Shown in pieces: positions 2,493 to 28,745 of a stretch of DNA of 64,000 bases. Every line of letters starts with the position of its first letter. The stretch's first letter is position 1. A program made the translations under genes and the position numbers. This DNA comes from Pseudomonadaceae bacterium (lineage in GTDB: Bacteria; Pseudomonadota; Gammaproteobacteria; Pseudomonadales; Azotimanducaceae): positions 62,001 through 126,000 of the forward strand of contig JANSXA010000003.1 in assembly GCA_024743175.1 (NCBI GenBank). The letters are read 5' to 3'. The notes beneath the pieces were generated by a model. The model made no database searches. It was not told the origin of the DNA and worked only from the letters and a program-made list of their open reading frames with translations.

Positions 2493-2506
2493 GTAAGTAT
2501 ACTTAG
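2493..2506. promoter_or_regulatory. Regulon operator 1 (GTAAGTATACTTAG)
   Basis: Near-perfect palindrome matching the island consensus GTAAGTATACTTAC at 13 of 14 positions. It sits in the divergent gap between the exported protein (start 2472) and the CaiB CoA-transferase (start 2594), where one repressor dimer could control both directions. Confidence 0.65.
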
Positions 2507-2593
2507 TTAAGGGATGGAATGCGCAAGTTTCTGTGCCGGGCTGCAGGACGGTAATCTCCCAGCGTTCATTTTTTGGATGTTTGAGAGAGGACG

Positions 2594-3757
2594 ATGATGA
2601 ATTCGGAATTACCCATATTGGACATTACCGTTGTGGAGCTTGGTACGAGCCTTGCGGCACCCTGGGCCGGTTTCATAATGGGTCAGATGGGCGCCACGGT
2701 AATCAAGGTCGAACAACCGGACGGCGGCGACCCGGCTCGTAGCTGGGGTCCGCCCATTGCAGACGAGACATCCGTGATATTTCAGGTTGCCAACAGGGGT
2801 AAGCATTCCGTGGTCCTGGATCTGACCAAGACCGCGGACCTTGAAGCTCTCAAAGAAATCGTCTGTCGCCGGGCGGATGTTTTTATTCAGAATCTTCGTC
2901 CCGGAGCAGTCGACAAACTGGGATTGGATGCGGGCACGCTGCTCGAAATGCATCCCGAACTGGTTTACTGCAATTTAGGCGCATAGGGCAGTGAGGGGCC
3001 ATTGGCTGATCGACCCGGTTATGATCCGTTGATTCAGGCGTTCAGCGGAATGGCTTCGGTCACAGGTCCTGAGGATGGAGAACCGTGTCGTGTGGGGGTG
3101 CCGGTGAACGATTTTGGGACGGGCATGTGGGCGGTGATGGGTGTGCAGGCAGGTCTGATGCGACGATCACGCACGGGCAAGGGCGGGCTGGTTGACGTTT
3201 CGCTGCTGGACACAGCTTTAGGTTATATGTCGCTTTCGTTAACGGCAGCTGCAATAACAGGCAAAGCTCAGGGACGTCACGGATTGGCGGGACCAGGAGG
3301 ACTTGTCCCCAACGAAGGATTTGAGACCGCAGATGGTGTTCTGATTATTACTGCCGGAACAGATGCACAATTTGCAAAACTGTGCGCTGTGCTTGATCAC
3401 CCGGAGTGGGCGCAGGACGAAAGATTCAACACTGCGGGTGGGCGTCATCGTCACGCATCGCTTTTGCGGGAACTCCTGAGCGCTTCGCTCGGCACGCGTA
3501 CGCGCGCCCAATGGATGGAGTTGCTGGATGCCCGGGGCGTGCCTAATTCTCCGGTTTTTGCACCGCTTGAGACGCTTGAGAACCCGCAAACCCAGGCTTG
3601 TGGAATGATACAGGCGGGTAGTGATGGCGGTGCGCCGCAAATCAGACTGCCGATTAAACTCGATGGAGAACGATTCTTGCGTTCGTCTCACGTGCCGAAA
3701 CCAGGCGAACACAATCATCTGTATTTAAACGGTGCAAATCCTGCCAATAAACGGTAG
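2594..3757 (+). pseudogene. CaiB/BaiF family CoA-transferase interrupted by one in-frame TAG
   Basis: Reading through the TAG at 2984-2986 gives about 387 residues, the normal length of class III CoA-transferases. The N-terminal part has the typical VVELGTSLAAPWAG and MGATVIKVEQP motifs. After the stop come ADRPGYDPLIQAFSG and VDVSLLDTALGYM, the latter holding the conserved Asp of the family. At the stop, relatives have an aromatic residue (a Tyr codon is one base away), so a point mutation is likely. It would have transferred CoA to a pathway acid. Start is ATG 2594 or 2597, after a purine-rich GAGAGAGG. Confidence 0.85.
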
Positions 3758-3765
3758 CCGCGAGA

Positions 3766-4986
3766 TCACGACAGCATCGAAATGGCAGGCCTTTTCCCCT
3801 GCAGCAGAGCTTCGCCGATCAGGCGCGCCTTGTAAGGCTTAGGATCGTGCAGCGTCAGCGTTCTCGCGTCCCGCCAGAAACGGTCCAGTCTTTGTTCTGC
3901 GAGCGTCGAGCGAGCACCAGTGGTCTGGAAAATGTCCTGACATACCCGCAGAGCGACTTCGGTAGAAACCACTTTGGCCTGTGCCACCAGCACTGCAGCC
4001 TGGGCACGCAGATCCGCGATCGCCTCGGTTGACAGGTCTTGTTGCAAAGCATCGTTTACTTTGTTGACCTTAAGTGCCGCCTGTGAAACCAGCGCTTCGG
4101 CGGCGGAAGCATAAGCCTGCAGGGTGCCGATTTCGGTGAGGATGTAGGGGTCTTCTACGGCGTGTGCCACATTGCTTTCCATCCACGGGCGCGCGTTGGT
4201 GCGGACGTATTCGGTGGCGCATGTCAGCGCGCCCTTTGCCATACCCACATACATGGCCGAGAAACCAAGCTGATAAATCGGGCCGATCACGCTGCTGTCT
4301 GGCAAGTTCAGTATGTCGATGCCATTCAGCAGATTGGCGTGCGGGACGTACAGATCTCTGAATTCGATACCGCCACTGCCTGTGCCTCCCTGGCCCATCG
4401 TGCTTCAGTTGTTCTGGATGGTGATACCCTGCGCATCCGCCGGTGTGATCGCCACACCAAGTGTGTCGTGATGACGACCAAATACCAGCAACAGATCTGC
4501 TGCTGGTGAGCCTGTGGTAAAGAACTTCCGGCCATTGATCGAGACGCCGTCCTCAGTGTCCTCAAACACTGTTTCAAATGTGTGCACTCGATTGGAGCCT
4601 TTCTCCGATGTGGCGTTGCCGATAAACAGGTCGTCATTTACGACGCGACTCAATACATTTGCGACTTGCTCCGGTGAGCCGAATTCGATGAGTGTGGAAA
4701 CCATGGCCGAATGTACAGCAAGGACTTGCGCAAGCGATGGGAAAGCTTCGGCAATCTGTTGGGTAATCGCTATGCTGCCCGCTGCGGTGGCGCCGAATCC
4801 GCCCAGCTTTTCCGGGACAGTCAGCTTCATGAATCCTGCCTCCTTGAGTGCCTTAATTTCCTGATGCGGGAATTCGCAGGCTTCGTCTCGCTCGGGGTAC
4901 GCTGCGGCGAAGTCTGGGAGCAGTTCGCCAAGCCTTGTTTTAAGTTCGCTCAGGTTATGGGCAGGTGATTTGGCTTGTTTGGTCAT
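3766..4986 (-). pseudogene. Acyl-CoA dehydrogenase/DszC-like flavoprotein interrupted by one in-frame TGA
   Basis: Both halves share a frame; the only interruption is TGA at 4407-4405. Read through, it is about 406 residues with acyl-CoA dehydrogenase N-terminal, middle and C-terminal domains. The stop falls in the middle domain just before STMGQGGTGSGG, where relatives carry Trp, one base from TGA. The C-terminal RFWRDARTLTLHDP is characteristic of the DszC/SfnB-type branch, so it may be a flavin monooxygenase rather than a dehydrogenase. Start ATG 4986 (MTKQ) is preferred over 5007. It follows the BVMO gene on the same strand and is probably co-transcribed from the operator at 6687. Confidence 0.85.
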
Positions 4987-5040
4987 GTTGCTATTCCCTG
5001 TGTGCACAAGTTTGAAGTTGAGGCTGGCTGCGCCTGAGGG

Positions 5041-6700
<1,660 letters not shown>

Positions 6701-6979: not shown

Positions 6980-6993
6980 GAAAGTATACTTAC
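6980..6993. promoter_or_regulatory. Regulon operator 3 (GAAAGTATACTTAC)
   Basis: 13 of 14 matches to the consensus. It lies 28 bases before ATG 7022 and a few bases after an alternative ATG at 6974, which argues that 7022 is the real start of the hydrolase. Confidence 0.65.
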
Positions 6994-7021
6994 CAAATCA
7001 GAAGCGTTTTGGGAGCGGGGT

Positions 7022-7915: not shown

Positions 7916-7934
7916 TACACTTCTGTTAGTTAAT

Positions 7935-7948
7935 GTAAGCATAATTAC
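7935..7948. promoter_or_regulatory. Regulon operator 4 (GTAAGCATAATTAC)
   Basis: 12 of 14 matches, with both GTAA and TTAC ends intact. It lies 54 bases upstream of the P450 start at 8003. Confidence 0.6.
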
Positions 7949-8002
7949 TATGAGACAGGGGTCAAAAAGATTCCTTCAAGTTACAGCTAAGGAGAATTTG
8001 CC

Positions 8003-9295
8003 ATGAGCGAAGCATTAGACAATGAGCTCGAAAACTCTGTCATGGATCTGAGAGACACCATGCTTGGCCGCGATCCGGACACGATCCCCCTGGATGAGAT
8101 AGATGTGGCTCAGCCAGCGTTATTTCAGGCTGATGCATTCTGGCCCTTTTTCGACCGACTGCGAAAGGAAGATCCGGTTCATTACTGCAAAGAGTCGCAG
8201 TTTGGACCGTTCTGGTCGGTGACCAAGTTTAACGACATCATGGAGGTAGAAGGTAATCCCCGAGTTTACTCCTCCGCCGACGGCATCAGCATTGCGCCTG
8301 TAAACACCTCAGCTCTGCCGGTAGAAATGTTTATCGCCATGGATGAGCCGAAACACGGAGAACAGCGCAAGACCGTTCAGAACGTGGTTGCACCGAAAAA
8401 CCTGGCTGAGCTCGAACCACTGATCAAGGAGCGGGTCGGCACCATTCTGGATTCGCTGCCCGTTGGCGAAACGTTCAACTGGGTAGACAGGGTGTCGATC
8501 GAGTTGACCACGCAGATGCTGGCGACGCTGTTCGACTTTCCGTTTGAAGACCGGCGCAAGCTGACCTTTTGGTCTGATGTGGCGACTACTCAGCCGGGGC
8601 CGGAGGGTCTGGTGAAGACCGTCGAGGAGAGGCGTGACGTGTTACTCGATTGTCTCAAGGCGTTTACAGAGCTTTGGAATGATCGGGTCAATCAGCCGCC
8701 GCGAGGGGACCTTATTTCAATGCTCGCTCACGGGGAAGCAACCCGCAACATGCAACCGTATGAGTTTCTCGGCAACCTGATGCTACTGATCATCGGTGGC
8801 AATGACACAACACGAAATTCGATCTCGGGTGGGGTCCTGGCGTTGAATCAGAATCCCAATGAGTACGACAAACTGCGAGCAGACCCCGGGTTGATTGCCA
8901 GCATGGTGCCGGAAATTATTCGCTGGCAGACTCCCCTGACCTCTATGCGTAGAACCGTGACGGAAGACACCCAGTTACGGGGAAAGCAGTTCAAGAAAGG
9001 TGACAAGGTAATCATGTGGTACGTGTCGGGTAATCGCGACGAAGAAGTCATCGATCAGCCGTACGAATTCATCATCGATCGCGAGCGGCCACGCCATCAC
9101 TTGTCCTTCGGATTCGGGATACATCGTTGCATGGGTAATCGGCTTGCCGAAATGCAATTGCGTCTGCTGTGGGAGGGAATCATGGAGCGCTTCGACATGG
9201 TTGAAGTCGTCGGCGAACCGGTACGTAGTTTATCGACGTTGATCAAAGGCTACACAGATCTCCCAGTCAGACTTCACCCGAAAAAGGTGGCATGA
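8003..9295 (+). CDS. Cytochrome P450, CYP153-like
   Basis: A 430-residue soluble bacterial P450. The I-helix oxygen-activation motif GGNDTTRNS, the ExxR region (PEIIRWQTP follows it) and the haem-ligand loop FGFGIHRCMG (Cys near 376) are present. The stretches IPLDEIDVAQPALFQAD, MWYVSGNRDEEVI and RCMGNRLAEMQLR are what I recall of CYP153, which hydroxylates alkanes, cycloalkanes and terpenes at unactivated carbons. A strong GGAG ribosome site precedes ATG 8003. CYP153 genes usually travel with a ferredoxin and reductase; none is encoded in this window. Controlled by operator 4. Confidence 0.92.
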   Translation: MSEALDNELENSVMDLRDTMLGRDPDTIPLDEIDVAQPALFQADAFWPFFDRLRKEDPVHYCKESQFGPFWSVTKFNDIMEVEGNPRVYSSADGISIAPVNTSALPVEMFIAMDEPKHGEQRKTVQNVVAPKNLAELEPLIKERVGTILDSLPVGETFNWVDRVSIELTTQMLATLFDFPFEDRRKLTFWSDVATTQPGPEGLVKTVEERRDVLLDCLKAFTELWNDRVNQPPRGDLISMLAHGEATRNMQPYEFLGNLMLLIIGGNDTTRNSISGGVLALNQNPNEYDKLRADPGLIASMVPEIIRWQTPLTSMRRTVTEDTQLRGKQFKKGDKVIMWYVSGNRDEEVIDQPYEFIIDRERPRHHLSFGFGIHRCMGNRLAEMQLRLLWEGIMERFDMVEVVGEPVRSLSTLIKGYTDLPVRLHPKKVA

Positions 9296-10898: not shown

Positions 10899-10912
10899 GA
10901 AAGCATGCTTAC
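10899..10912. promoter_or_regulatory. Regulon operator 5 (GAAAGCATGCTTAC)
   Basis: Matches the degenerate consensus GTAAGYATRCTTAC at 13 of 14 positions. It lies between the end of the NTF2-like gene and the BVMO start (10884), so the BVMO is probably its own transcription unit. Confidence 0.62.
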
Positions 10913-10926: not shown

Positions 10927-11358
10927 TCAGTTTCCCCAACCTTGGGTCAAAGGGACCATGTGAAAAGTGATGAATACTCGTTCCGAAAACTTCCAGGTCC
11001 CGTCGATTTTTTTGTAGGTGTCTCGATACCAACCTGCTGCTGTTATCGCAGTGCCGTCCCGCACCATGCGAATCTCAACGGAACACCGACCTTGCGCTTT
11101 GGTGGGGGTGAGGCTATCGATCACATGGTTCTGGATAAATGGAATCGGCGGATTGTCTGATAAGGCGGCGTAAAAGCTGCTGAGTTCTGCTGAACCGTCT
11201 ACGCGGCGTTCACCCATGACGAAGGCGCCATCGTCACAAAACAAAGCGGTTACCGCCGTGCCGTCTCCAGCCGCGATGCTGTGGCAGTACTCGGCAGTAA
11301 GCTCACGAATCGCTTCTCGGTCTTCCAGAGCATTGATCTTTTCTTCGAGCGTGGCCAT
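10927..11358 (-). CDS. NTF2/SnoaL-like protein
   Basis: A 143-residue single-domain protein of the cone-shaped NTF2-like fold: N-terminal helix with DREAIRELTAEYCHSIAAGD, FCDDGAFVMGERRVDG, and a C-terminal YRDTYKKIDGTWKFSER strand pair. Such proteins serve as small dehydratases, isomerases or cyclases on ring compounds. Start ATG 11358 follows GGAGAG and is preferred over 11382. It lies 82 bases downstream of the amidohydrolase on the same strand and is probably in that unit. The exact reaction cannot be told from sequence. Confidence 0.82.
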   Translation of the reverse strand: MATLEEKINALEDREAIRELTAEYCHSIAAGDGTAVTALFCDDGAFVMGERRVDGSAELSSFYAALSDNPPIPFIQNHVIDSLTPTKAQGRCSVEIRMVRDGTAITAAGWYRDTYKKIDGTWKFSERVFITFHMVPLTQGWGN

Positions 11359-11440
11359 AACGGCTCTCCTATCCATAAACATTCAGCAAAATGCCGGTCC
11401 CCGGGCAAATTCGCGTCACCCGCGTTCAGATTGCCTGTTG

Positions 11441-12574
11441 CTAGGCCGGGACTTTGTCTAATGGTAAATCGTAACATTCGATAATGTTGTCGCGCATAAT
11501 CCAGCGCTGCTGCTCGGCGGTTAGTCCGGATGCGTGCTTGGCCAGCATTTCCTGGGACCAGGGCCACGTTGCGTCACTGTGCGGAAAGTCGTTGGCCCAG
11601 ACCAGGCGCTTTGGATTCATCAGGTTGGCCACTTTAAAGGCTACCCAATCGTCCTGAAAGGTCAGCCAGACGTTCGAGTTGAGGTAGTCGCTCGGCATTT
11701 TCTCCAGGTTTTTGCCGCCACCCAGCCAGATGGCATGGCGTTCGTAGGCATGATCCATACGGTACGCATAGTGCGGTAGCCATCCGGCGTCAGCCTCGGC
11801 GGCGATAAACTTCAGGTTGGGATGTCTGTCGAAAACGCCACCCAGCACAAAAACGCCCATCACGTCCTGAACGCTGCGAATAATGCCTAGAAAACCGTTG
11901 GTTTTGTTGCCGCGCACTTTAGCGCTACTGCTGCGCGACGTGAGGATATGGAACGACAGGGGCATGTTAAGATCTACGGCGCATTCCCACAACGGATCGT
12001 AGATTGCATGATCGTAGTCTTCGTCCTGCGGTTCACCGGGCATCATCATGCCGACAAAACCTTTCTTCTTACAGTCCTCGAAATCCGCAATCATCTGTTC
12101 TACCGAGCTGCCCGAAGTCTGTCCAAGGCCAAACAGGCGCCCAGCGGGTGCATCCTCGACGTAAGCTGTCAGCCAATTGTTGTAAGCGTGCATGCAAGCG
12201 GTCTTATAGTCGTAGTCTTCATGGTTGCACAACACCATACCCACAGACGGATACAGAATCTCTGCAACAACGCCGTCACGCTCCTGGTCCGCAACGCGAT
12301 ATTTTGCGTTGGACCCGCTCTTGTGAAGCTGATCAAAAGTACACCCTTCACGCCGCTGGCCCAATTCTTCTGCTGACAGTCCTGCTGCGGCGACCAACCC
12401 CAGTGGAATAGTCGACTTCATACCGGGAATGACGTAAATATCGTTGCCAAGCTTATCCCTCTCTATAGTTGGCGCCCGATCGCGGTATTTTGGACTAATG
12501 TACTTTGCATAACAGTCAGCGGGTTCGACAATGTGAGAATCCGCAGAAATAAGTCCAAAACCCAGATTACTCAT
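11441..12574 (-). CDS. Amidohydrolase 2 family metal-dependent hydrolase or decarboxylase
   Basis: A 377-residue TIM-barrel enzyme of the amidohydrolase-related family (PF04909 type). Metal-site signatures are ADSHIVEP near the N-terminus, FHILTSR mid-protein and WANDFPHSDATWP near the C-terminus. Members include ACMSD-like decarboxylases and cyclic-diketone or lactone hydrolases. ATG 12574 is the start because operator 6 (12617-12630) would fall inside a longer frame. A close paralogue lies at 25693-26832. Its role is probably C-C or ester cleavage in the pathway; substrate unknown. Confidence 0.88.
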   Translation of the reverse strand: MSNLGFGLISADSHIVEPADCYAKYISPKYRDRAPTIERDKLGNDIYVIPGMKSTIPLGLVAAAGLSAEELGQRREGCTFDQLHKSGSNAKYRVADQERDGVVAEILYPSVGMVLCNHEDYDYKTACMHAYNNWLTAYVEDAPAGRLFGLGQTSGSSVEQMIADFEDCKKKGFVGMMMPGEPQDEDYDHAIYDPLWECAVDLNMPLSFHILTSRSSSAKVRGNKTNGFLGIIRSVQDVMGVFVLGGVFDRHPNLKFIAAEADAGWLPHYAYRMDHAYERHAIWLGGGKNLEKMPSDYLNSNVWLTFQDDWVAFKVANLMNPKRLVWANDFPHSDATWPWSQEMLAKHASGLTAEQQRWIMRDNIIECYDLPLDKVPA

Positions 12575-12616: not shown

Positions 12617-12630
12617 ATAAGTATACTTAC
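12617..12630. promoter_or_regulatory. Regulon operator 6 (ATAAGTATACTTAC)
   Basis: 13 of 14 matches to the consensus, with a perfect core AAGTATACTT. Located 43 bases upstream of the amidohydrolase start at 12574. Confidence 0.66.
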
Positions 12631-13685: not shown

Positions 13686-13699
13686 GTAAGTAAACTTAT
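13686..13699. promoter_or_regulatory. Regulon operator 7 (GTAAGTAAACTTAT)
   Basis: 12 of 14 matches to the consensus. Lies in the gap between the TetR gene end (13728) and the metallo-hydrolase start (13556); both are on the minus strand, so it most likely controls the hydrolase. Confidence 0.58.
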
Positions 13700-14462: not shown

Positions 14463-14499
14463 GCTGAGTATGAGACCAGATGGTTAACCAGGGGGATTG

Positions 14500-15291: not shown

Positions 15292-15300
15292 GCGCCTGGC

Positions 15301-16458: not shown

Positions 16459-16479
16459 GATTAAGTAAGGTAACAAGCC

Positions 16480-18425: not shown

Positions 18426-18475
18426 ATTTGTCAGGGACGGATACATGTTACGCGTATTGAATGGGGAGGTGGGCC

Positions 18476-19273
18476 TTGGACCTTGGTTTTAGCAGAAAAT
18501 CTGTCGTAATTACCGGCGGGGCTTCCAATATTGGCCGCGCGATATCATTGGGTTTTGCGCGTGAAGGCGCAAATATCACGATCGCTGAAATTGATCTTAA
18601 GCAAGCTGAAACTGTGGCAGAAGAAGCGCGCACAGCGGGCGCAGGTTCCGTACAGATTGTATCGTGTGATGTGACAGATATTGTGCAGGTAGAGGCATTG
18701 TTTGCTGCGGCAAACACTGCGCATGGTGCCGTCGATGTGCTTGTTAATAACGTCGGATGGGATGACCTTATGTTTTTTACCCAGACAACACCCGAATTGT
18801 GGCAGAAAATAATACAGGTCAACTTCGTAGGGGTTCTGAACTGTACGCGTACAGCATTGACAGAGATGTTAGCCAACAAGAATGGCAGTATTGTGTCAAT
18901 AAGCTCTGATGCAAGTCGTCAGGGAGAGTCCCGCGAGGCGGTATATGGGGGCATGAAAGCAGCCGTTAACAGCTTTATGAAGACCATCGCAAAGGAGAAC
19001 GGTCGTTTTGGCGTGCGATGTAATGTGGTGTGTCCGGGCGTAACCATACCTGAGGAGACTGGTGAGGTCGGCGTTAACAGTATGTGGGCAGACAAAGACG
19101 CCATGTTTACTGAAGATCAAATTGCCACAATTGCAAAGTCGCTGCCTTTACGAAAGTTAGGCAGGCCTGAAGATGTGGCTAACGCAGTACTGTTTCTTGC
19201 GTCAAATGAAGTTGCGGGCCATGTGACCGGGCAGGTCCTGAGTGTCAGCGGCGGCTATTCCATGATTGGATGA
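18476..19273 (+). CDS. badH: SDR, 2-hydroxycyclohexanecarboxyl-CoA dehydrogenase-like (BadH type)
   Basis: A 265-residue short-chain dehydrogenase with NAD motif TGGASNIGR near residue 14, NNVGW, and catalytic Ser and YGGMK (YxxxK). The segments VNNVGWDDLMFFTQT, ISSDASRQGESREAVYGG and QVLSVSGGYSM resemble BadH, which oxidises 2-hydroxycyclohexanecarboxyl-CoA to the keto form that BadI opens. The start is taken as TTG 18476 because GGGGAGG lies just upstream and the protein then begins MDLGFSRKSVVITGG; a GTG or ATG further up would lack spacing. Last intact gene of the ring-degradation operon. Confidence 0.75.
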   Translation: MDLGFSRKSVVITGGASNIGRAISLGFAREGANITIAEIDLKQAETVAEEARTAGAGSVQIVSCDVTDIVQVEALFAAANTAHGAVDVLVNNVGWDDLMFFTQTTPELWQKIIQVNFVGVLNCTRTALTEMLANKNGSIVSISSDASRQGESREAVYGGMKAAVNSFMKTIAKENGRFGVRCNVVCPGVTIPEETGEVGVNSMWADKDAMFTEDQIATIAKSLPLRKLGRPEDVANAVLFLASNEVAGHVTGQVLSVSGGYSMIG

Positions 19274-19518
19274 TCTGGCGCCCGGGTGGTCCGATTCCAG
19301 ATGAAACGACGGTCCTGAGTTTTTGTCATTTTCTGGGAGCATACGTATTGGGCGTAAGCTGTTTGCCGATATTAATAGCCCCTTGGACAAGCAGGGGTGA
19401 AGTTGCGGGAAGGCGCCAGACAAGAAAAGAGAAATCAGGCGCTGATTTCAAGCTGGACTTTCATATGCTTGACGCCACCAATGAATCCAGAGCGAAGTCG
19501 TTGTGCTTCTTCTACTAA

Positions 19519-19752
19519 TTCGATGTGTTTGGCGAGTTTGGGGCGCTCTACGATGAGTCTTTGTATCAAGACAAACGAAATTGGCAGAAAGGATTTCTGA
19601 GTTCTTTTGTAGGCATCACTGGGGGCGGCTCTGCTAACATACCGAAAAGTATTATCAGTGAACGAGGGCTTGGCATGCTGCGCGAACCCCTTGTCAAATA
19701 CGAAGATGGCCAGTGGAAACTGCCCGCGAAGAAAGACCAAGACAGGCGATAG
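19519..19752 (+). pseudogene. C-terminal remnant of an acyl-CoA dehydrogenase
   Basis: About 77 codons in frame to TAG 19752 read as the end of an acyl-CoA dehydrogenase: [40 protein letters not shown]. The last part corresponds to the C-terminal FAD/CoA motif of that family. Upstream, the same frame is closed by TAA 19516-19518, and the preceding 245 bases encode nothing like the missing N-terminal and middle domains. The gene therefore seems to have lost about 300 residues by deletion. The downstream thiolase gene is intact. Confidence 0.65.
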
Positions 19753-19766
19753 CTGAAGGAGGTGAA

Positions 19767-20933
19767 GTGAAGTGGGGAAATGAAGCCGCAATTGTCGGTA
19801 TTGCTGAAACGAATTATACCAAGGGCACACAACGAACCGCTGTAGATTTGATGTTAGAGGCAGCAAGATCTGCGATCGCAGATGCGGGTCTGACTCCTGC
19901 TGATATTGATGGCATGGTACCGCCGCCAATTATTACAACATCGGAAGAGCTTGCGGCGAATCTGGGTGTACCTGTTCTGCATTACGCGGCGACCGTTCAT
20001 ATGGGTGGTGCAAGTCCAACTGCAGCCATACAGAATGCATCTGTCGCAATTGCCGCAGGTCTGGCCGAGACGGTACTGATTGTGCTTGGATGGAATGGTT
20101 ATTCTGCTTTGCGCCCAAAACCTGGTCAGCCTCGCAGCCGGCCGATAGGCATATCTGCCATGTCGGCAACCATGAAAGATTTTTATATTCCGTTTGGCGT
20201 TATGTTACCGGTACAAATGTATGCCTGGCTGGCTACACGCCATAAAGAGCTTTTTCAAATTCCGGATGAAGCCACTGGTGAAGTCGCAGTTGCATGCAGG
20301 AAACACGCGCAGCTTAATGAGCGGGCATTCATGTATGATCGCTCTCTGTCGATGGAGCAGTACCTGGACAGCCGCATGGTTTCCGATCCGTTTCGACTCA
20401 ATGACTGTTGTTTGGAGACCGATGGGGCGTGTGCAATCGTACTGACTTCGGCTGAGCGAGCCAAAGACCTGCCGCATGATCCTGTGTATGTTATGGCAGC
20501 CGCCGAAGGTCATCCTTACCCTGCTGATGATATTCCGTCTAGAGAGGATCCATTTAAAATCGGGTTGAGCTATGCGGCGCCACGCGCCTTTGACATGGCC
20601 GGGATAAAACCAACTGACGTTGATTTTTTGCAGGTGTATGACTGTTTCACCTATGTCGTCCTATTGCAGTTAGAGGCGATGGGGTTTTCTGAACGCGGTG
20701 GTATCTACGACTTTGTTAAAGATGGTCAAATTCAACTGGGAGGTAAATTTCCACTAAACACCCATGGTGGGCTGCTTAGTGAAGCGCACGTGTGGGGTCT
20801 CAATCATGCCGTAGAGGCGACGCGTCAATTACGTCATGACGCGGGAGACCGTCAGGTTGAGGGTGCAGAAATTGGGCTGGTCACGGGATGGGGAGACCTG
20901 GGTGATGGCAGCATAGCGATACTTAGGAGATAA
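19767..20933 (+). CDS. Thiolase-fold protein, Ltp2-like (probable aldol lyase subunit)
   Basis: A 388-residue thiolase-superfamily protein of the sterol-carrier/lipid-transfer branch. [17 protein letters not shown] near the C-terminus and [11 protein letters not shown] are typical of Ltp-type proteins. At the position of the thiolase nucleophile the sequence reads [10 protein letters not shown], with no cysteine, so normal thiolysis is unlikely. Ltp2 proteins of steroid side-chain pathways, paired with a DUF35 partner, act as retro-aldol lyases; a DUF35 gene follows 2 bases later. GTG 19767 is the start, after GAAGGAGG. Function by analogy. Confidence 0.85.
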
Positions 20934-20935
20934 CA

Positions 20936-21340
20936 ATGAGCGAATGGCCCATACCGAAACCCATTGATCCAATCAACGCTGAATTCTGGCATGTTTGCCA
21001 GGATGGGGTGTTACGGTTTCAGCGCTGCACGGCATGTGATCGTTTCAGGCATTTACCGCGTTATATGTGTGCCAGTTGCGGCAGCACCGACTACGAGTGG
21101 TCTGCGGTGGAACCGCGTGGTTCGCTCTATTCATGGACAGTGACACATCAGGTTTTTCACGCAAATTTCGCTGTACCCTTTATTGCCGCCGTTGTTGAGT
21201 TTTCCGAAGGCGTGCGCCTTATGAGTCAGTTGGTTGGTGCGGAAGCGGGTCAACTGGAACTCGGACTGTCAGTTGACGTTGAATTTCACGTGGTGTCTGA
21301 TGAATTTCAAACGCCGGTTTTCAAATTAGCGACTCGTTAG
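20936..21340 (+). CDS. DUF35 OB-fold/zinc-ribbon partner protein
   Basis: A 134-residue protein with an N-terminal rubredoxin-like zinc ribbon (CTACDRFRHLPRYMCASC, about residues 32-49) and a C-terminal OB-fold. Such proteins bind acyl-CoA and pair with thiolase-like enzymes; in the Ltp2-ChsH2 aldolase the DUF35 domain completes the active site. It starts 2 bases after the thiolase stop, fitting a two-subunit complex. An ordinary thiolase-associated role cannot be excluded. Confidence 0.88.
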   Translation: MSEWPIPKPIDPINAEFWHVCQDGVLRFQRCTACDRFRHLPRYMCASCGSTDYEWSAVEPRGSLYSWTVTHQVFHANFAVPFIAAVVEFSEGVRLMSQLVGAEAGQLELGLSVDVEFHVVSDEFQTPVFKLATR

Positions 21341-21353
21341 TTTCGAGGTACCC

Positions 21354-22040
21354 ATGAAATTTGGTCTCTTTGTTTATTGCACAGTCGGTCGACGTCTGGA
21401 GCTTGAAGCGGGCATGGCTGGGCGTAAACCGGAACTTTATCATCGGATACTAACGGAGTTGGTCTGGTGCGCGGCTATCAGTCGCGGTGGGTCGAAAACT
21501 ATAAAGTGCAGCCACAGCTAAAAGCGGTTGGGCCGTGGAACAAAGATGGTCCGGAAGATGAACTCAATAGAGCCTACTTTGCGGAATTTGTGGAGGTTGT
21601 TGGTAAAGCACTTCACAGTGGTACGTTTTCACATCAGGGTGACTTTTGGCAATTTCCGCTGGTGGGGTATGTTAATCCTCATGAGCATCCGCACTGCTAA
21701 GTTCTGGGCTAAGTATAAGGGTCGTCCCATTGTTCTTGCGGACGATAGAGATTTTCTGCAAGCGCTGTGGCGGGAGTGGGAAGAGGAAGCCAAATTGCAC
21801 GGGCACGATGTACACCCGGGTGAACAAGCCTGTTGGGGCGGGTTAATGATTTGCGCGGAAACCGATGCTAAAGCGCAAAAACTGTATGAGGACATGGCTT
21901 GGTTCTGGAAAACCTGGGCCAGCCCATTTGGTCAAGGCGTGCCACAACTGCTGGTTGGTAGTCCGGAGACACTGAACAAGCAGATTGAGAAAGATTCAAA
22001 TTGGTTTAACTATACTTTGGGTGGAGAGACAACCAGATGA
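21354..22040 (+). pseudogene. LLM-class flavin-dependent monooxygenase broken by two internal deletions
   Basis: Three fragments of a luciferase-like monooxygenase lie in different frames. Residues MKFGLFVYCTVGRR to RILTE are read from ATG 21354 to about 21458. GLVRGYQSRWVENYKVQPQ to VNPHEHP follow in a second frame (about 21455-21690), closed at 21700. RTAKFWAKYKG to GGETTR finish in a third frame to TGA 22040. The total, about 229 codons, is well short of the 350-400 usual for the family; about 90 residues appear lost at the first junction and tens more at the second. The last fragment overlaps the next gene's ATG, showing the original operon layout. Confidence 0.8.
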
Positions 22041-22522
22041 CCTCGTTACGCACAGTTGGGTTGGGTATCGCTTATGATGAACTACAGGTTGGTGATCAGT
22101 TTCGTACCCTGGCGCGTACTCTGACTGAAACAGATCTGGTTAATTTCATCAACACCACGGGCATGGTTGAAGTTCTCTTTACAGATGTAGAGTACGCCAA
22201 GACACATGCGCCACAGGGTGGGCGGTTGGTGCCGGGGGCTCTGGTCTACGCTGTAGCGGAAGGACTGTTAGTTCAGGCGACTTTGCAGCGCACCGGTCTT
22301 GCATTTCTAAGCATGAATTTCGAAATCCTGAAACCTACGTTTGTGGGTGATACGGTGCATGTAGAGGTTGAAGTTTTAGAGTGTCGAGCCACATCTAAAA
22401 CACCGGACAGAGGGTTGGTGCGTACCAGGAACAATATCGTCAATCAGCATGAAGAGGTGGTTATCTCGTATGCACCGTTGCGTATGGCTGCCAGTACAAA
22501 GCTGCGGGATCGTGATGCATAG
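22037..22522 (+). CDS. MaoC-like hot-dog dehydratase
   Basis: A 161-residue hot-dog-fold protein of the MaoC-like enoyl-CoA hydratase group. After ELQVGDQFRTLARTLTETD comes the substrate loop with GGRLVPGALVYAVAEGL, then MNFEILKPTFVGDTVHVEVEV, the standard second half. Such proteins hydrate enoyl-CoA intermediates. The Asp/His pair of classical hydratases is not obvious in the central helix, so it may be one half of a heteromer or a binding partner. Its ATG overlaps the stop of the broken LLM gene. Confidence 0.8.
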   Translation: MTSLRTVGLGIAYDELQVGDQFRTLARTLTETDLVNFINTTGMVEVLFTDVEYAKTHAPQGGRLVPGALVYAVAEGLLVQATLQRTGLAFLSMNFEILKPTFVGDTVHVEVEVLECRATSKTPDRGLVRTRNNIVNQHEEVVISYAPLRMAASTKLRDRDA

Positions 22523-22531
22523 GGGAACATA

Positions 22532-23410
22532 TTGAATCGTCGTTATCGTTCGGTTTTTCGGCAAGATTTGTTCGATGGCCAACGGATATTGGTAACCGGG
22601 GGCGGGTCGGGGATAGGCCGCTGCATTGCTCACGAGTTGGCCAGCGTCGGTGCCACAGTTCTAATTGTTGGTCGTACAGCAGCCAAGCTGGAAAGTGTTG
22701 TTGATGAGATTGAGCAAGACGGAGGCGAGGCGGAGTTCCTGGTTTGTGATGTGCGGGACGAAGAAATGGTTGAGTCCGTGATCAATCAGTTTGTTCTGTC
22801 AGCACCTGTAGACGGGCTTGTTAACTGTGCGGGGGGACAATTTCCGGCTCTGCTTGAGGAAATGTCAGTAAAGGGTTTCGAAGCGGTTGTGCGCAATAAT
22901 CTAACTTCTGCATTTGTCGTTTCCAAGATTTTGTATGAGGCATGCCTTCGCCGTCGTGGCGGTGTGATTGTCAACATTACGGCAGATCATGTTGGTGGTA
23001 TGCCATTGATGGGCCACAGTGGAGCGGCACGAGCCGGGGTGGAAAATCTCACTGCCACGGCGGCGCTGGAGTGGGCTGAAAACGGGGTGCGCGTAAATGC
23101 GGTTGCGCCGGGTTACATTGAGTCAAGTGGCTTTGACACCTATACAGATGAGCGAATGATCGCTGCGTTAAAGTCGTTTGCGAAGCGCACGCCTTTAGGG
23201 AGATTGGGGTGTGAGGCAGAGGTCAGTGCCGCTGTTTGTTTCTTACTGAGCGAAGCTGCAGCGTTCATAACCGGCCAGGTTTGGCGGGTAGATGGAGGCT
23301 TTGGCCTGAATACTAATACACCAATGTTGGAAAGGTCAGATCCAAAGTCTCAGGTCGCCTTTAATGGGTTTCATCGCAGTGTCCGGCCATCTGTTACATT
23401 TCAGAGTTGA
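22532..23410 (+). CDS. SDR, 2-enoyl-CoA reductase-like (PECR/DECR type)
   Basis: A 292-residue short-chain dehydrogenase starting at TTG 22532 after AGGGGA. NADP motif TGGGSGIGR is near residue 27. The usual YxxxK is replaced by HSGAARAG, the pattern of peroxisomal trans-2-enoyl-CoA reductase (PECR), followed by NLTATAALEWAENGVRVNAVAPG. It therefore probably reduces a C=C bond of an enoyl-CoA rather than a ketone. Last gene of the plus-strand thiolase operon; its end faces the MarR gene. Confidence 0.82.
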   Translation: MNRRYRSVFRQDLFDGQRILVTGGGSGIGRCIAHELASVGATVLIVGRTAAKLESVVDEIEQDGGEAEFLVCDVRDEEMVESVINQFVLSAPVDGLVNCAGGQFPALLEEMSVKGFEAVVRNNLTSAFVVSKILYEACLRRRGGVIVNITADHVGGMPLMGHSGAARAGVENLTATAALEWAENGVRVNAVAPGYIESSGFDTYTDERMIAALKSFAKRTPLGRLGCEAEVSAAVCFLLSEAAAFITGQVWRVDGGFGLNTNTPMLERSDPKSQVAFNGFHRSVRPSVTFQS

Positions 23411-23460: not shown

Positions 23461-23931
23461 TTAGCTATCGCTGGTTAGATCCTGCAGATTGCCTTTTATC
23501 TTACCTAGAACTCTTTTCGTAGTTTGTAGATCCTTCGCATTCAGCGACGCCATACTTTTCGAATACAATCTGTGCGCTATAACCTGCATGTCGGGGATGA
23601 GCTTGCGCGCGTTGCGCGTGAGGAACACCCGCTTGATGCGCTTATCGCTGGAGTCTTCGCTGCGAGAAACCAGATCTTTACTCTCCATACGATCTATCAG
23701 ACCGCTCATTGCCATGCGCCCAACCCCAATATACTCGCACAAGTCTGCTTGCGTGATGCCTGGAAAGCGGGTCACACAGGCCAGGACGCGCGCTTGTGGT
23801 CTGGTGAGTCCTAAAGGTGCCATGAGCTGGGCATAAGCGTTGGTAAATTCACGTGCGACCTCATAGACAAGAAAACCCATATCTTCGCCGTCTATATGAT
23901 CTGAGATGGCGACAATCTCACGCTTACTCAT
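23461..23931 (-). CDS. MarR family transcriptional regulator
   Basis: A 156-residue winged-helix regulator. The recognition region is GITQADLCEYIGVGRMAMSGLIDRM, and the wing holds SRSEDSSDKRIKRVFLT. ATG 23931 is chosen because a GAGGAG site lies just upstream; 23973 is the longer alternative. It lies downstream of two hydratase genes on the same strand and probably senses a pathway acyl-CoA or acid. No obvious palindrome identifies its target. Confidence 0.9.
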   Translation of the reverse strand: MSKREIVAISDHIDGEDMGFLVYEVAREFTNAYAQLMAPLGLTRPQARVLACVTRFPGITQADLCEYIGVGRMAMSGLIDRMESKDLVSRSEDSSDKRIKRVFLTRNARKLIPDMQVIAHRLYSKSMASLNAKDLQTTKRVLGKIKGNLQDLTSDS

Positions 23932-24074: not shown

Positions 24075-24887
24075 CTAGTTCCCAGTGAATTTGCCTGCTC
24101 GCCTTTCCGATACTGCTCGCACACCTTCAGCGGCATCTTGTGTGCGTAGCAGCCAGTTTTGTTCAGATAACTCTCTATCGGTCGCATTGCGCACAGCTTC
24201 TGCAAAATTTCCGCGGAGTGTCTCCCGGACCGACATCACCGCCTGAGGGGCTGCGCCAGCAATTTGAGCTGCTTTTAACTGCGCCACAGGGCGTACCTCT
24301 GCTTGATCGACGAACTGATCGAGCAAACCGATTGCAAATGCTTCTTCTCCTGTAACCCGGCGACCTGTGTAGAACATATCGTAGGCACTTTGCTGGCCGA
24401 CAATTCTCGGTAATGTAAAGCTGAGGCCGAATCCAGGATGAATACCCAGTTGAGTGAAATTGGCCGCCATCCTGGTTTGTGGACATCCCACACGCAAATC
24501 TGCAACCAGGGCTAAGCCAAGCCCGCCACCGATGGCAGCGCCATGTATCGCGGCAACGATAGGCTTTTTAGTAGCAAACAAGCGCACGGCTTGTTCGTAT
24601 AAATGACCACTTAACCCGCTGCCTTTATCCAAGTTTCCTAAGCCCGCGGGATTGGCGCCGTTTTTCCCGCCTTGAAAATCTGCACCCGCACAGAACGCTT
24701 TACCGCTGGCACAAAGCAAGATTGCGCGGCACGCCGCGGTATCATCTAGTGTTTCGAAAGCTTCTGCGAGCCCCATCAGCATTTCCATGTCGAAAAAGTT
24801 GTAATCGCCGTTGGTGAGCTCGACAGTGGCAACATGGTCATCGTCTAATGCGACTTTTAGTTTTGGCTTGGATGTGGCCTCAGGCAT
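24075..24887 (-). CDS. Enoyl-CoA hydratase/isomerase family protein
   Basis: A 270-residue crotonase-fold protein with oxyanion motifs AFCAGADFQGG and GAAIGGGLGLALVADLR. Beyond the second motif the sequence reads TQLGIHPGFGLSFTLPR, so the first hydratase glutamate is replaced by Gln, and an isomerase, hydrolase or non-standard activity is possible. It lies 2 bases downstream of another hydratase gene in the same unit (amidohydrolase, hydratase, this gene). Confidence 0.87.
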   Translation of the reverse strand: MPEATSKPKLKVALDDDHVATVELTNGDYNFFDMEMLMGLAEAFETLDDTAACRAILLCASGKAFCAGADFQGGKNGANPAGLGNLDKGSGLSGHLYEQAVRLFATKKPIVAAIHGAAIGGGLGLALVADLRVGCPQTRMAANFTQLGIHPGFGLSFTLPRIVGQQSAYDMFYTGRRVTGEEAFAIGLLDQFVDQAEVRPVAQLKAAQIAGAAPQAVMSVRETLRGNFAEAVRNATDRELSEQNWLLRTQDAAEGVRAVSERRAGKFTGN

Positions 24888-24889
24888 AG

Positions 24890-25696
24890 TTATTTTCCCC
24901 GGTACACTGCTTTTCGCTTCTCCATGAACGCTTTAGGACCTTCAATTGCGTCCTCAGTGCGCATAATGCGTGCGGATATTTCGGTTTCGATAGGAAAGGC
25001 TTGTTCAAGCGCCAGGCCACTGGTTCGAATGACTGCTTCTTTGCACGCAGCGACAGCTAGTGGGCCGTTTTCGGCTATTCGCCCGGCGACCTCTGCAGCC
25101 CGCGATTGAAGATTTTCGGCTGCGACAATCTCATTGATCAAACCAATGCGCAGTGCTTCTTCAGCAGGCATACGCTCCCCCAATAGCAATATTTCCATAG
25201 CTTTGCAGTAGGGAATCTGTCTTGCCAATCTGACCAGTGAGCCGCCTCCGGGAACAATGCCGCGGGAAACTTCGGTTAATCCGAATTCCGCAGTTGGTGC
25301 TGAGATGCGGAAGTCAGTTGCCTGTAATATTTCGGTGCCACCGGCCAGGGCGAATCCGTTCACAGCGGCTACCACAGGTTTGTACAACTCGAAATCGCGT
25401 AACAATGCAATTTGCATGAGTGAGCGGTCTTTGATCAGAGCTTCATCGAACTCATCGTCAGGCTCTCGAGCGCGTGAAAAAAGTGGTATCAGTAAGCCCA
25501 GATCGGCACCGGCGCAGAACGCCTTGTCACCCGTTCCAGTAAGAATCGCGACGCGCATATTGTCGTCGCCTCGGAAATCTCGCCAAGCATTTGCCATTTC
25601 CACGATCATTTGCGGGCTCAGCGCGTTGCGTCTTTCAGGTCGGTTCAGGGTGAGATAGGCAACACCGCCTCGTTTTTCATAGAGCAGATGTGTCAT
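24890..25696 (-). CDS. Enoyl-CoA hydratase
   Basis: A 268-residue crotonase-fold protein with oxyanion motifs AFCAGADLGLL and GFALAGGTEIL. Both acid positions of a true hydratase can be seen, Glu in LTEVSRGIVPGGG and in KAMEILLLGERM. It probably performs the hydration step of a beta-oxidation round. Its ATG overlaps the stop of the upstream amidohydrolase (4-base ATGA overlap), so translation is coupled. Confidence 0.9.
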   Translation of the reverse strand: MTHLLYEKRGGVAYLTLNRPERRNALSPQMIVEMANAWRDFRGDDNMRVAILTGTGDKAFCAGADLGLLIPLFSRAREPDDEFDEALIKDRSLMQIALLRDFELYKPVVAAVNGFALAGGTEILQATDFRISAPTAEFGLTEVSRGIVPGGGSLVRLARQIPYCKAMEILLLGERMPAEEALRIGLINEIVAAENLQSRAAEVAGRIAENGPLAVAACKEAVIRTSGLALEQAFPIETEISARIMRTEDAIEGPKAFMEKRKAVYRGK

Positions 25697-26832
25697 GGCG
25701 TCATCCGCCAGCTTTCGTTGCCCGCGGGCAGGTTGAACAGCGTTGCGGTATTGTCGCGCAAGATGGCTTGTAGTTGATCATCGTTCAGCTTGGCGGTTTG
25801 GTCCGCAATTAATGCCAATGACTCTGGCCATGTTGAATCTGTATGAGGAAAATCACTGGCCCAGAGCAGATGCTTGTAGTCGATCATATGCAGGGATTCA
25901 AAGGCGGTGCGATCATCCTGAAAGGTCGCCCAGACATTATTTTTCACGTATTCGCTTGGGAGTTGTGACAAACCTTTTATAATGCCGTCTTCGGCATGAA
26001 TTTTGGCGGCGTGGTCCATGCGGTGCATGTAATGAGGTATCCAGCCAGCATCACTTTCCGCAACCACAAGTTTTAAATTTGGATGTCGCTCGAACACGCC
26101 ACCAAGCACCATCAAACCGACGATGTCCTGTACTGCGCGAATTATGCCTAGAAAGCTATTCATCGCATGACCGCGGGGTTTTACGTGCAGGCTTCCAGCA
26201 CGCCCTGTGAGGATATGAAAACAGACGGGCAGGTCGAGGTCAGTTGCACACTCCCATAGTGCGTCATAGTCGGGGTGGTCGTAATCTTCGTGGATGGGGT
26301 CTCCTGGCATCATCATGCCGACCATGTTCATCTCCTTAGCTTTGCGAAAATCAGCGATTGCTGAATCGACACTCAGGACTGCCGTTTGAGCCAGACCGAA
26401 AATGCGCGTGGGTGCATCCGCACACATGCTCTGTAACCATTGATTGTAGGCTTGCATGCAGGCATTTTTGTAGAGGGGGTCCTTGTGCATGCATAGTCCC
26501 ATGCCCACGGAGGCATAGATAATCTCAGCAGCCAACCCGTCCTGATCCATGAAAGGTACCCGTGCAGGTCCGTCGTACGCAGCTTTGCGAATGTCGCTGA
26601 AACGAATCTTCTTTGCGCGGTCGAAACGTTCTCGGACACCAAACCCGGCGCCATCAATGAAGCCCAGTGCAATAGGTTTTTTCATGCCCGGAATAACAAA
26701 CGCCTCGGTACCATCCTCCTGTTCTACGATACGTGGCGCGTCTTCACGATATTTTGGCTCAATAAAATCGACATAGCAGTTGGGTGGTTCGCAGATATGA
26801 CCATCTGCTGAAATAATGCCTGCGGGAATCAC
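25693..26832 (-). CDS. Amidohydrolase 2 family protein, paralogue of 11441-12574
   Basis: A 379-residue TIM-barrel metal hydrolase/decarboxylase. The order of motifs ISADGHICEP, VIPGMKKPIALG, YASVGMGLCMHKD, FHILTGRAG and WASDFPHTDSTWP parallels the enzyme at 11441-12574 throughout, so the two are paralogues. It leads the unit amidohydrolase, hydratase, hydratase, and operator 8 lies about 110 bases upstream. A similar C-C or ester cleavage on a different intermediate is inferred; substrate unknown. Confidence 0.88.
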   Translation of the reverse strand: MIPAGIISADGHICEPPNCYVDFIEPKYREDAPRIVEQEDGTEAFVIPGMKKPIALGFIDGAGFGVRERFDRAKKIRFSDIRKAAYDGPARVPFMDQDGLAAEIIYASVGMGLCMHKDPLYKNACMQAYNQWLQSMCADAPTRIFGLAQTAVLSVDSAIADFRKAKEMNMVGMMMPGDPIHEDYDHPDYDALWECATDLDLPVCFHILTGRAGSLHVKPRGHAMNSFLGIIRAVQDIVGLMVLGGVFERHPNLKLVVAESDAGWIPHYMHRMDHAAKIHAEDGIIKGLSQLPSEYVKNNVWATFQDDRTAFESLHMIDYKHLLWASDFPHTDSTWPESLALIADQTAKLNDDQLQAILRDNTATLFNLPAGNESWRMTP

Positions 26833-26942: not shown

Positions 26943-26956
26943 GTAAACAAGCTTAC
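26943..26956. promoter_or_regulatory. Regulon operator 8 (GTAAACAAGCTTAC)
   Basis: Both outer half-sites GTAA and TTAC are intact; the centre is more divergent (10 of 14 to consensus). Located upstream of the amidohydrolase start at 26832. Confidence 0.5.
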
Positions 26957-27000
26957 AGTAATGTGATCAGGAGGAATTTGGTAGGCAATGTTGCGGGGTC

Positions 27001-27244
27001 TTAGTAGATGCCAGTGCAGTGTTCTAGCAAGCCGTTTCCGGCAGCCAAACTGGTGTCTTTTAACATGGCAGCAGCAATTCCCTGGTCGTGAAACGTCCCT
27101 ATGTCTTCGTCGTATCGACCATCGATACCTATGACAGACATGTGCTCACCTTCCATGCTGAACAGGGGGGGGGGTCGCTTCGCGGATTGCAGACGCATCA
27201 CCGGCAACAACGACAACATCGTCGGCAAAACGCCCGTCTCTCAT
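27001..27244 (-). pseudogene. Frameshifted N-terminal remnant of an SDR
   Basis: An ATG at 27244 overlaps the nitronate monooxygenase stop (ATGA). The frame reads MRDGRFADDVVVVAGDASAI, like the first strand and cofactor loop of an SDR, but the glycine motif is degenerate. At a run of ten C (plus-strand G 27165-27174) the frame breaks; the sequel continues one frame over as LFSMEGEHMSVIGIDGRYD, matching the next SDR strand, to TAA 27001. The rest of the SDR (Tyr/Lys site) is missing. About 80 residues remain. Confidence 0.6.
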
Positions 27245-28365
27245 GAAACGTCCGGCAACAAACCGTTCATGCGATCGCTGGTCTCTAGGTATTCCTCTAC
27301 TAACTGCATGACGACATCGCGTGCATTCATGACATGATTGAGTCGTCCAACGATTTGTCCAACTGGCACAAACATCAGTTCCCTGGATTGCTCTGGAAAG
27401 CGGCGCATGCGTTTCATGGCATTACCAACAGCCATCATCTGCATGGGTGCATCGAGTGATTGTGGGTTGTTGCCGGCATCCCAAGCTTCGGTCCAGGCAT
27501 TTTTCAGCATCCTCACTGGTTTGCCGGTGACGCTCGCTGAACGTATAGTTTCGTTGCTATTCGCCGCAAGTAGCAGTTCTTTTTCGATCGGCGTGGTGGC
27601 GGCCTCGGCAACGGTAAGCCATAGCGAACCACACCATACTCCCTGGGTACCCATAGCAAGCGCTGCATACATTTGGCGTCCAGAGCCAATTCCGCCTGCT
27701 GCTATAACTGGTATGTCTCCGGCAACGTCGACGACCTCAGGCCACAACACCATGCTGCCAATTTCTCCTGTGTGCCCGCCGCCTTCGCCGCCTTGCGCGA
27801 TGATAAAATCCAGGCCGGCGTCGACATGCATTTTTGCATGTCTCGGCGACCCGCAGAGGGCGCCAACCATGCGACCGCTGTCTTGAATTTGTCTGATTAT
27901 TTCAGGTGGTGGTGTTCCCAGCGCGTTGGCGATTAGTTTTACATTGTCGTGTTGAAGGGCGATGTCTACGAGTGGCGCTGATGTGGCTTCAGTCATCGAG
28001 AGGCGGTCTGTCGTCTTACCTTCGTTGTTCAGTCGCGGCACGCCATGCGCGTCGAGCAGTTCGTCTGCAAAGTCTCGATGTCCCTGGGGAATTGCTGCAC
28101 TGATCATGGTGCGCAGTTTTTCTTCATCCTTTTCGTCCTGGCCCTGATATTTGTTGGGAATAATGACGTCCACGCCATATGGCCGATCGCCGACATGTTC
28201 ATCTATCCAGTCCAGCTCGATGGCCAGTTGCTCTGGACGGAAACCGACTGCGCCCAAAACGCCGATACCCCCGGCATTGGTGACGGCGGCGACAACGTCG
28301 CGACAATGCGTAAAAGCAAAAATTGGAAAATCGATGCCGAGCTTCTTACATAGATCAGTTTGCAT
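27241..28365 (-). CDS. Nitronate monooxygenase family FMN enzyme
   Basis: A 374-residue TIM-barrel flavoprotein of the NMO/2-nitropropane dioxygenase family: N-terminal KLGIDFPIFAFTH, NAGGIGVLGAVG, central IAQGGEGGGHTGEIG with the active-site His, and AAGGIGSGRQMYAALAMG for FMN phosphate binding. In catabolic clusters such proteins often act as FMN-dependent enoyl reductases or oxygenases rather than on nitronates. It is coupled to the SDR remnant downstream; operator 9 lies about 100 bases upstream. Confidence 0.87.
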   Translation of the reverse strand: MQTDLCKKLGIDFPIFAFTHCRDVVAAVTNAGGIGVLGAVGFRPEQLAIELDWIDEHVGDRPYGVDVIIPNKYQGQDEKDEEKLRTMISAAIPQGHRDFADELLDAHGVPRLNNEGKTTDRLSMTEATSAPLVDIALQHDNVKLIANALGTPPPEIIRQIQDSGRMVGALCGSPRHAKMHVDAGLDFIIAQGGEGGGHTGEIGSMVLWPEVVDVAGDIPVIAAGGIGSGRQMYAALAMGTQGVWCGSLWLTVAEAATTPIEKELLLAANSNETIRSASVTGKPVRMLKNAWTEAWDAGNNPQSLDAPMQMMAVGNAMKRMRRFPEQSRELMFVPVGQIVGRLNHVMNARDVVMQLVEEYLETSDRMNGLLPDVS

Positions 28366-28745
28366 TTCGTTCCTCTTTTAATTGATTCAGATAATTGATT
28401 TGGTCATGTACCAAGCACGCTAGGGCATCGCCTGGACGATCCATGTCAATGTCGTGTTTGAAAGTACGCATGCTTATCATATGTGGTGTGGGAGAGAGAT
28501 GAAAGCATCAAGCTTGGGTCTTCGTCGCCCCCATGAATGTGATCCTGGCGCGGACCTCTACAGAGATTTGCGTCATCCGTGGCGAGAGGCTGCTGGCAAC
28601 CCGTGTGCCCGGGTCGTCCAGCTGCTGCTGGGTCGAATTTCGAACACGACACCAGGTTTCTTAGGGTTGTTTTGGTAGGAACGGGAACTCGAGTGCCAGT
28701 GCAGGCATCTGCTACACTGGCAAATTGTTTTTTGAAGCCGTATCT
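28366..28745. other. Intergenic stretch with operator and no recognisable gene
   Basis: About 380 bases between divergent genes. It holds operator 9 and an imperfect TTGGT...ACCAA palindrome at 28400-28414 close to the nitronate monooxygenase start. Short open frames exist on both strands (for example 28501-28677 plus), but none shows a known motif or a clear ribosome site. It marks the border between the damaged catabolic island and the more ordinary genes. Confidence 0.5.
28464..28477. promoter_or_regulatory. Regulon operator 9 (GTACGCATGCTTAT)
   Basis: 12 of 14 matches to the degenerate consensus GTAAGYATRCTTAC. It lies about 100 bases upstream of the nitronate monooxygenase start and is the rightmost copy found. 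Confidence 0.5.

Follow-up and report, generated by a model that had tools for sequence, protein, structure and literature searches.

This 64,000-nucleotide stretch of an Azotimanducaceae genome (the window; positions 62,001 to 126,000 of contig JANSXA010000003.1, or C9:62001-126000) raises the question of which regulator reads a 14-bp palindrome that recurs ahead of its catabolic genes, and how many of those genes the palindrome governs. A shared operator is predicted to head about ten catabolic transcription units, a prediction well supported by the clustering of the sites, by their position and by cross-prediction from other genomes. The data point to a MarR-family protein encoded at 23461-23931, rather than a nearer TetR-family protein, as the likely reader of the operator.

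Operator sites

The nine copies of GTAAGTATACTTAC that an earlier, sequence-only reading had reported in the window are present, with 10-13 of 14 bases matching. That reading had also placed each copy just upstream of a unit head (Baeyer-Villiger monooxygenases (BVMOs), a hydrolase, a P450, amidohydrolases and others), which is borne out by gaps of 14-129 nucleotides (nt) between the sites and the nearest proposed start codons, the copy at 6687 being doubtful. Two further strong sites were located left of the window, at C9:57506 (4.5 kb away) and C9:46060 (15.9 kb away); the genes headed there are an amidohydrolase/short-chain dehydrogenase (SDR) pair and an alcohol dehydrogenase/MaoC pair. 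The window sites are listed below with mismatches to GTAAGTATACTTAC; bits refer to the 11-site matrix and ranks to the matrix from relatives in other genomes, both described below.

2493..2506: site GTAAGTATACTTAG (1 mismatch), between the exported-protein gene (1372-2472, minus strand) and the CaiB gene (start 2594, plus strand); 19.7 bits, leave-one-out 17.1
6687..6700: possible but doubtful site GTTGTTATACTTAC (3 mismatches, one good half-site), 14 nt ahead of the BVMO1 start; leave-one-out 7.0, rank 168
6980..6993: site GAAAGTATACTTAC (1 mismatch), 28 nt ahead of the likely alpha/beta hydrolase start at 7022
7935..7948: site GTAAGCATAATTAC (2 mismatches), 54 nt ahead of the P450 start at 8003; rank 5
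10899..10912: site GAAAGCATGCTTAC (3 mismatches), 14 nt ahead of the BVMO2 start (10884, minus strand); rank 4
12617..12630: site ATAAGTATACTTAC (1 mismatch), 42 nt ahead of an amidohydrolase start (12574, minus strand); rank 8
13686..13699: site GTAAGTAAACTTAT (2 mismatches), 129 nt ahead of a metallo-beta-lactamase-fold hydrolase (GTG 13556, minus strand); rank 15
26943..26956: site GTAAACAAGCTTAC (4 mismatches), 110 nt ahead of a unit of an amidohydrolase and two enoyl-CoA hydratases (ECH) (26832, minus strand); rank 6
28464..28477: site GTACGCATGCTTAT (4 mismatches), 98 nt ahead of a nitronate monooxygenase-like gene (28365, minus strand); rank 2

The 28-nt gap at 6980 depends on the choice of ATG 7022 over the in-frame ATGs at 6974 and 6770, and the site at 13686 lies downstream of the stop codon of the TetR gene.

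Clustering of the sites

At up to three mismatches, GTAAGTATACTTAC has seven matches in the window, all among the nine sites, where 0.63 are expected, and none of 100 shuffles attains that number. Over the genome (4.72 Mb) there are 51 such places against 144 for a reversed-pattern control, so that there is no overall enrichment; it is the clustering that is raised, with all five genome places at up to two mismatches falling in window 2493-13686, within its first 14 kb. The refined pattern GTAAGYAWRCTTAC at up to two mismatches likewise totals 44 forward matches in the genome, below its control of 56. Nine of the 12 distinct genome places within one mismatch of GTAAGYAWRCTTAC sit in C9:46060-88943, a span of 43 kb or about 0.9% of the genome, and the remaining three fall inside stop-to-stop open frames.

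A weight-matrix scan, as the sequence-only reading had proposed, was run over 124 kb of the contig with a symmetrised matrix built from the 11 sites, the whole genome being covered by mismatch count. The training sites score 12.4-21.2 bits and the next position 10.8 bits, which leaves a clean gap. That best non-site position, 42907, lies inside the open reading frame (ORF) 42427-44055 and is the strongest match in the right 35 kb of the window, where the claim that no convincing site occurs thus holds with this matrix. When each site was left out in turn, ten scored 13.9-20.3 bits and 6687 scored 7.0, so the latter is weak by itself. The earlier description of an island-wide regulon stands for the operator shared by about ten units and is too broad in one respect, because the ten-gene unit at 14497-23410 has no site above background in the matrix scan (best 10.0 bits, in its acyl-CoA dehydrogenase gene).

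It is very improbable that the sites are artefacts of chance or of promoter composition, a view to which the genome count of 51 below its control would lend itself, given that the close matches are clustered in one island before genes and are recovered by a matrix from other genomes. Among 57 other genomes no motif excess comparable to that of the window was found (18 matches against 7 for the control, both strands summed); those slightly above control were G052 (10 against 6), G022 (5 against 2), G048 (5 against 3), and G044 and G015 (one more each). A sigma-70 promoter scan of 2300-14600 was uninformative, with 9 promoters found and 8.4 expected; two minus-strand matches (12647-12620 and 7965-7938) overlap operators.

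Assignment of the regulator

Two regulator genes of the island were considered as sources of the operator reader.

13728..14351, minus strand: TetR-family regulator (Pfam), KstR2-related (4w97, E 2.3e-14)
23461..23931, minus strand: MarR-family regulator, 156 aa from ATG 23931; SlyA model 7.9e-14, SlyA structure 3q5f 6.6e-13

The best NCBIfam models for the protein at 23461-23931 are MarR-family regulators, SlyA among them, and 57 distinct solved sequences, mostly named as MarR/SlyA-type, match it at E<=0.001. It scores 51.8 bits against the SlyA equivalog cut-off of 120, and carries Ala, Ser and Gly at the positions of Ser62, Val64 and Arg65, the residues by which SlyA contacts bases (PMC4737184).

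The neighbourhoods of 23 MarR-homologue loci were compared with those of 12 TetR-homologue loci and 11 more distant TetR loci (scan of genome contigs). The MarR loci were drawn from 13 genome places, of which 12 were used, and from 24 plasmid records (1e-12), of which 11 were used; several of the other records are near-identical Sphingobium plasmids. The weakest MarR genome place, G317 (seen only as the 3.4-kb locus L056), gave no match. The 12 TetR loci comprised all six other genomes with a homologue and 6 of 274 plasmid records. No further MarR homologue was found at 1e-20 in 398 genomes from a phylum draw.

When these loci were scanned with the island matrix, no more than one shuffle out of 40 equalled the best match at 9 of the 23 MarR loci and at 1 of the 12 TetR loci; the former matches include the palindromes GTACGCATGCGTAC, GTAAGTATGCGTAC and GTATGCATGCATAC, whereas the single TetR-locus match has no palindromic symmetry. 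Palindromic matches of at least 11 bits with the island-only matrix occur in 13 of 23 MarR loci against 2 of 23 TetR loci (1 of 12 and 1 of 11; Fisher p 0.0006). Eight of the 23 loci (L101-L106, Diaphorobacter L118, at 146-191 nt, and L122) have a match of at least 10 bits no more than 400 nt upstream of the aligned MarR start.

The comparison was also made in the opposite direction. Applied to 300-nt upstream pieces of seven MarR homologues, with no window sequence included, a search for palindromic motifs against a Markov background yielded GTAaGCATGCtTAC with a log-likelihood of 50.5, against 20.2-21.6 in four random-piece controls. When 123,987 positions are ranked by the matrix from these seven loci, the first 15 include 10 of the 11 island sites, which fill the first six ranks, and 6687 comes at rank 168; 2 of 500 column-permuted palindromic matrices also bring 10 sites into the top 15. 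With a 13-bit threshold the seven-locus matrix gives 21 matches, 18 of them palindromic, in 298 kb from 17 of the 23 MarR loci (the seven training loci among them), and a single, non-palindromic match in 243 kb of the 12 TetR loci. A larger set of 14 MarR homologues, for which no random control was run, gave GTAtGCatGCaTAC, sites again taking the first six ranks and 8 of the 11 falling within the first 15; from this set L104 was dropped as a near copy of L102, and L107-L111, L121, L122 and L124 were not included. Palindromic matches of at least 11 bits with the island-only matrix also follow the recognition helix, occurring in 12 of the 15 MarR loci with small residues at the SlyA Val64 and Arg65 positions against 1 of the 8 others (p 0.003).

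Reading of the palindrome by the TetR protein, with repression of the same units in a KstR2-like mode of catabolic control, is the chief rival and is considered unlikely. Its gene is the nearest to the densest sites, and its relative KstR2 controls catabolic genes through a half-site, CAAG, that resembles TAAG (PMC3068626); the palindromic matches nevertheless follow MarR homologues, and the two TetR loci that do have island-type matches carry them in annotated coding sequence (L126, 12.6 bits) or some 6 kb away from a TetR of 27% identity (L038, 14.4 bits). The exact KstR2-type box AnCAAGnnCTTGnT, whose spacing is two bases shorter than that of the island operator, is present in 4 of the 12 TetR loci, and was not found in the six loci at 40-43% identity (L091-L094, L125 and L126). 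In the island, AnCAAGnnCTTGnT at up to one mismatch occurs at no operator site and not before the TetR gene; matches lie at 14422 (two mismatches) and 4717 (one mismatch, inside the acyl-CoA dehydrogenase gene). The TetR gene's own upstream region has no GTAAG site and carries a different, imperfect palindrome, TCTAATTAGTGTTAGA, at 14393.

This palindrome (14393-14408), in the gap that separates the TetR gene from the divergently oriented ten-gene operon, is a candidate TetR operator; two matches were counted where 0.65 are expected, a number attained by 21 of 100 shuffles. Motif searches upstream of TetR homologues returned the KstR2-like AgCAAGCGCTTGcT from both a uniform run (12 loci) and a Markov run (10 loci). 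A second TetR subset (8 loci) gave CGTagaATtctACG, which was set aside, with no good match before the window TetR gene (6 mismatches). Exact KstR2-type boxes near TetR homologues were noted in four genomes of the same order (L114 at 10072, L115 at 10201, L116 at 9488 and L117 at 11064), hinting at KstR2-like regulation outside actinobacteria.

Control of the palindrome by a regulator encoded elsewhere in the genome is improbable. Close sites are concentrated in the island where the MarR gene lies, homologues of the island MarR protein predict the motif, and no third regulator was found among the island proteins scanned, although six of these lack a Pfam family and the scans did not extend to all open frames. 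Co-location is in itself no proof of pairing, and the genome encodes five weaker MarR paralogues.

A number of observations weigh against assignment of the operator to the MarR protein. The MarR gene has no site immediately upstream of it, and 15 of the 23 MarR loci have no match near the MarR start. The MarR homologues are only 29-40% identical to the island protein. Among loci with small residues, L087 (10.5 bits), L088 and L120 have no match, and one locus without such residues, L122, does have a match. The training loci (both 7 and 14) were chosen after the island-matrix matches had been seen, so that the cross-prediction is not blind, and the random controls used 60 restarts against 150 for the real motif search; a uniform-background search on the MarR upstream regions gave a GC-rich artefact. 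Five of the 15 top-ranked positions with the seven-locus matrix are non-sites (42907 and 15882 in the window, plus three to its left), and the relatives' matrix gives lower scores (11.3-13.5 bits) to sites whose centre is TATA or TAAA. The p-values are optimistic, since a single bacterial family supplies 9 of the 23 MarR loci and the 11-bit cut was fixed after the scores were seen.

Proposed regulatory scheme

The sites, their clustering, their position and the joint occurrence of the operator and MarR homologues in other bacteria were computed directly, and from them we infer a scheme of binding, repression, feedback and an inducer; the sequence-only reading had proposed a single inducer and had named no regulator. 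The MarR protein at 23461-23931 probably represses about ten catabolic units through the palindrome, and would be released by an intermediate of the pathway, probably an acyl-CoA. With its 14 bp in two 7-bp half-sites, GTAnGYAWRCnTAC would be the operator of a MarR-family winged-helix dimer; in MarR dimers generally, each recognition helix takes one half-site of a palindrome, and the majority of those characterised are repressors (PMC4737184, PMC5487221). Bound 14-129 nt before start codons, the dimer would most likely act as a repressor, with which the nearness of the sites to the start codons fits. The units so controlled would encode two BVMO-type oxygenases, a CYP153-like P450, an esterase, amidohydrolases, a CoA-transferase, hydratases and an alcohol dehydrogenase. 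The MarR gene, which begins 143 nt after the amidohydrolase-ECH-ECH unit (24075-26832), stands behind a site-headed unit and may be under feedback control by read-through. The TetR protein probably acts as a switch of its own, which may serve the neighbouring operon at 14497-23410.

The acyl-CoA inducer is proposed by analogy with BadR (strain CIB) and CouR, which act over acyl-CoA catabolic clusters and are released by CoA thioesters. BadR of Aromatoleum sp. CIB and Rhodopseudomonas palustris resembles the system proposed for the island in being a MarR-type repressor with palindromic operators in an alicyclic acyl-CoA catabolic cluster, and its effector in strain CIB is cyclohexane carboxyl-CoA (PMC9795900); its operator, CAATnnATTG or CAAN4TTG, differs from GTAnGYAWRCnTAC, the comparison being by description. 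CouR of Rhodococcus jostii RHA1, also of the MarR family, has boxes at four catabolic promoters and is released by p-coumaroyl-CoA (PMC4737184); its box, cATTGA-5-TCAATg, is likewise different, and structure 5cyv, named CouR in PMC5487221, matches the island MarR protein weakly (E 6.5e-9). SlyA is the best solved relative of the island protein, and its consensus TTAGCAAGCTAA has the same centre, AGCAAGCT, as the site at C9:46060 (PMC5797941). The KstR2 regulon of the TetR family likewise has a palindrome of 14 bp, found at a few divergent promoters in an island of acyl-CoA catabolism, and the window TetR is related to KstR2; the KstR2 operator (PMC3068626) is absent from the island sites.

Catabolic MarR regulons are already well known, and there is a reasonable chance that a distinct operator clade is represented here. 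We lean slightly towards a broader reading, in which an undescribed proteobacterial MarR clade with small residues (A/S/T - G/S - G/S) at the base-contacting positions reads GTAnGYAWRCnTAC and governs islands of acyl-CoA-based ring or terpenoid catabolism as cluster-wide regulons, tying unstudied amidohydrolases, BVMOs and the CYP153-like P450 to one signal. Five literal operator strings gave no match in a search of 5.39 million papers, although they may be in print elsewhere or in other notation. The prediction groups about ten scattered units of unknown role into one regulon and names its likely regulator; the short operator matrix could locate similar catabolic clusters in other bacteria, and the inducer would point to the substrate of the pathway.

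In plasmid pTM1 of Tistrella mobilis (L119), three palindromes of the same type (at 773, 6492 and 14988) separate annotated divergent units in the surroundings of a MarR gene; the 20-kb acyl-CoA catabolic cluster that holds them is apparently a parallel regulon.

Island genes

The remaining genes of the island are as follows.

1372..2472, minus strand: presumed exported protein, without a Pfam or NCBIfam match at E<=0.001
2594..3757, plus strand: CaiB-type CoA-transferase with in-frame TAG (ORFs 2594-2986 and 3002-3757)
3766..5007, minus strand: acyl-CoA dehydrogenase with in-frame TGA (ORFs 4405-5007 and 3766-4398)
5041..6672, minus strand: Baeyer-Villiger monooxygenase 1 (BVMO1); 6jdk, 780 bits
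7022..7915, plus strand: alpha/beta hydrolase (Abhydrolase_3)
8003..9295, plus strand: cytochrome P450, CYP153-like; 7ant, 578 bits; CYP153A7 3rwl, 562 bits
9370..10884, minus strand: FMO/BVMO-like monooxygenase 2 (BVMO2)
10927..11382, minus strand: SnoaL-like protein
11441..12574, minus strand: amidohydrolase (Amidohydro_2)
12693..13556, minus strand: metallo-beta-lactamase-fold hydrolase
14497..23410, plus strand: ten-gene unit, ECH, acyl-CoA dehydrogenase, Rieske oxygenase, ECH, SDR, thiolase, its DUF35 partner, a protein with no family, MaoC and SDR
24075..26832, minus strand: amidohydrolase (PtmU3/DitZ-related) and two enoyl-CoA hydratases
27241..28365, minus strand: nitronate monooxygenase-like flavoprotein

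Window open frames 28725-30614 (629 aa) and 11-562 (183 aa) have no Pfam family. A third operator-adjacent gene with an in-frame stop is an SDR gene left of the window (L011, about 4150-4756), read by eye as having a TGA early in its frame; the stops in the CaiB, acyl-CoA dehydrogenase and SDR genes may reflect decay of the island or sequence error.

The CYP153-like P450, the BVMO near 6jdk and the PtmU3/DitZ-related amidohydrolase suggest, judged by homology, that the substrate of the island is an alicyclic or terpenoid compound. Five TonB-dependent receptors were noted in or beside the island, four left of the window (L011 6664-9543 and 11116-14106; L012 13698-16574 and 16840-19722) and one within it (33908-35812), and possibly serve the uptake of a poorly soluble substrate.

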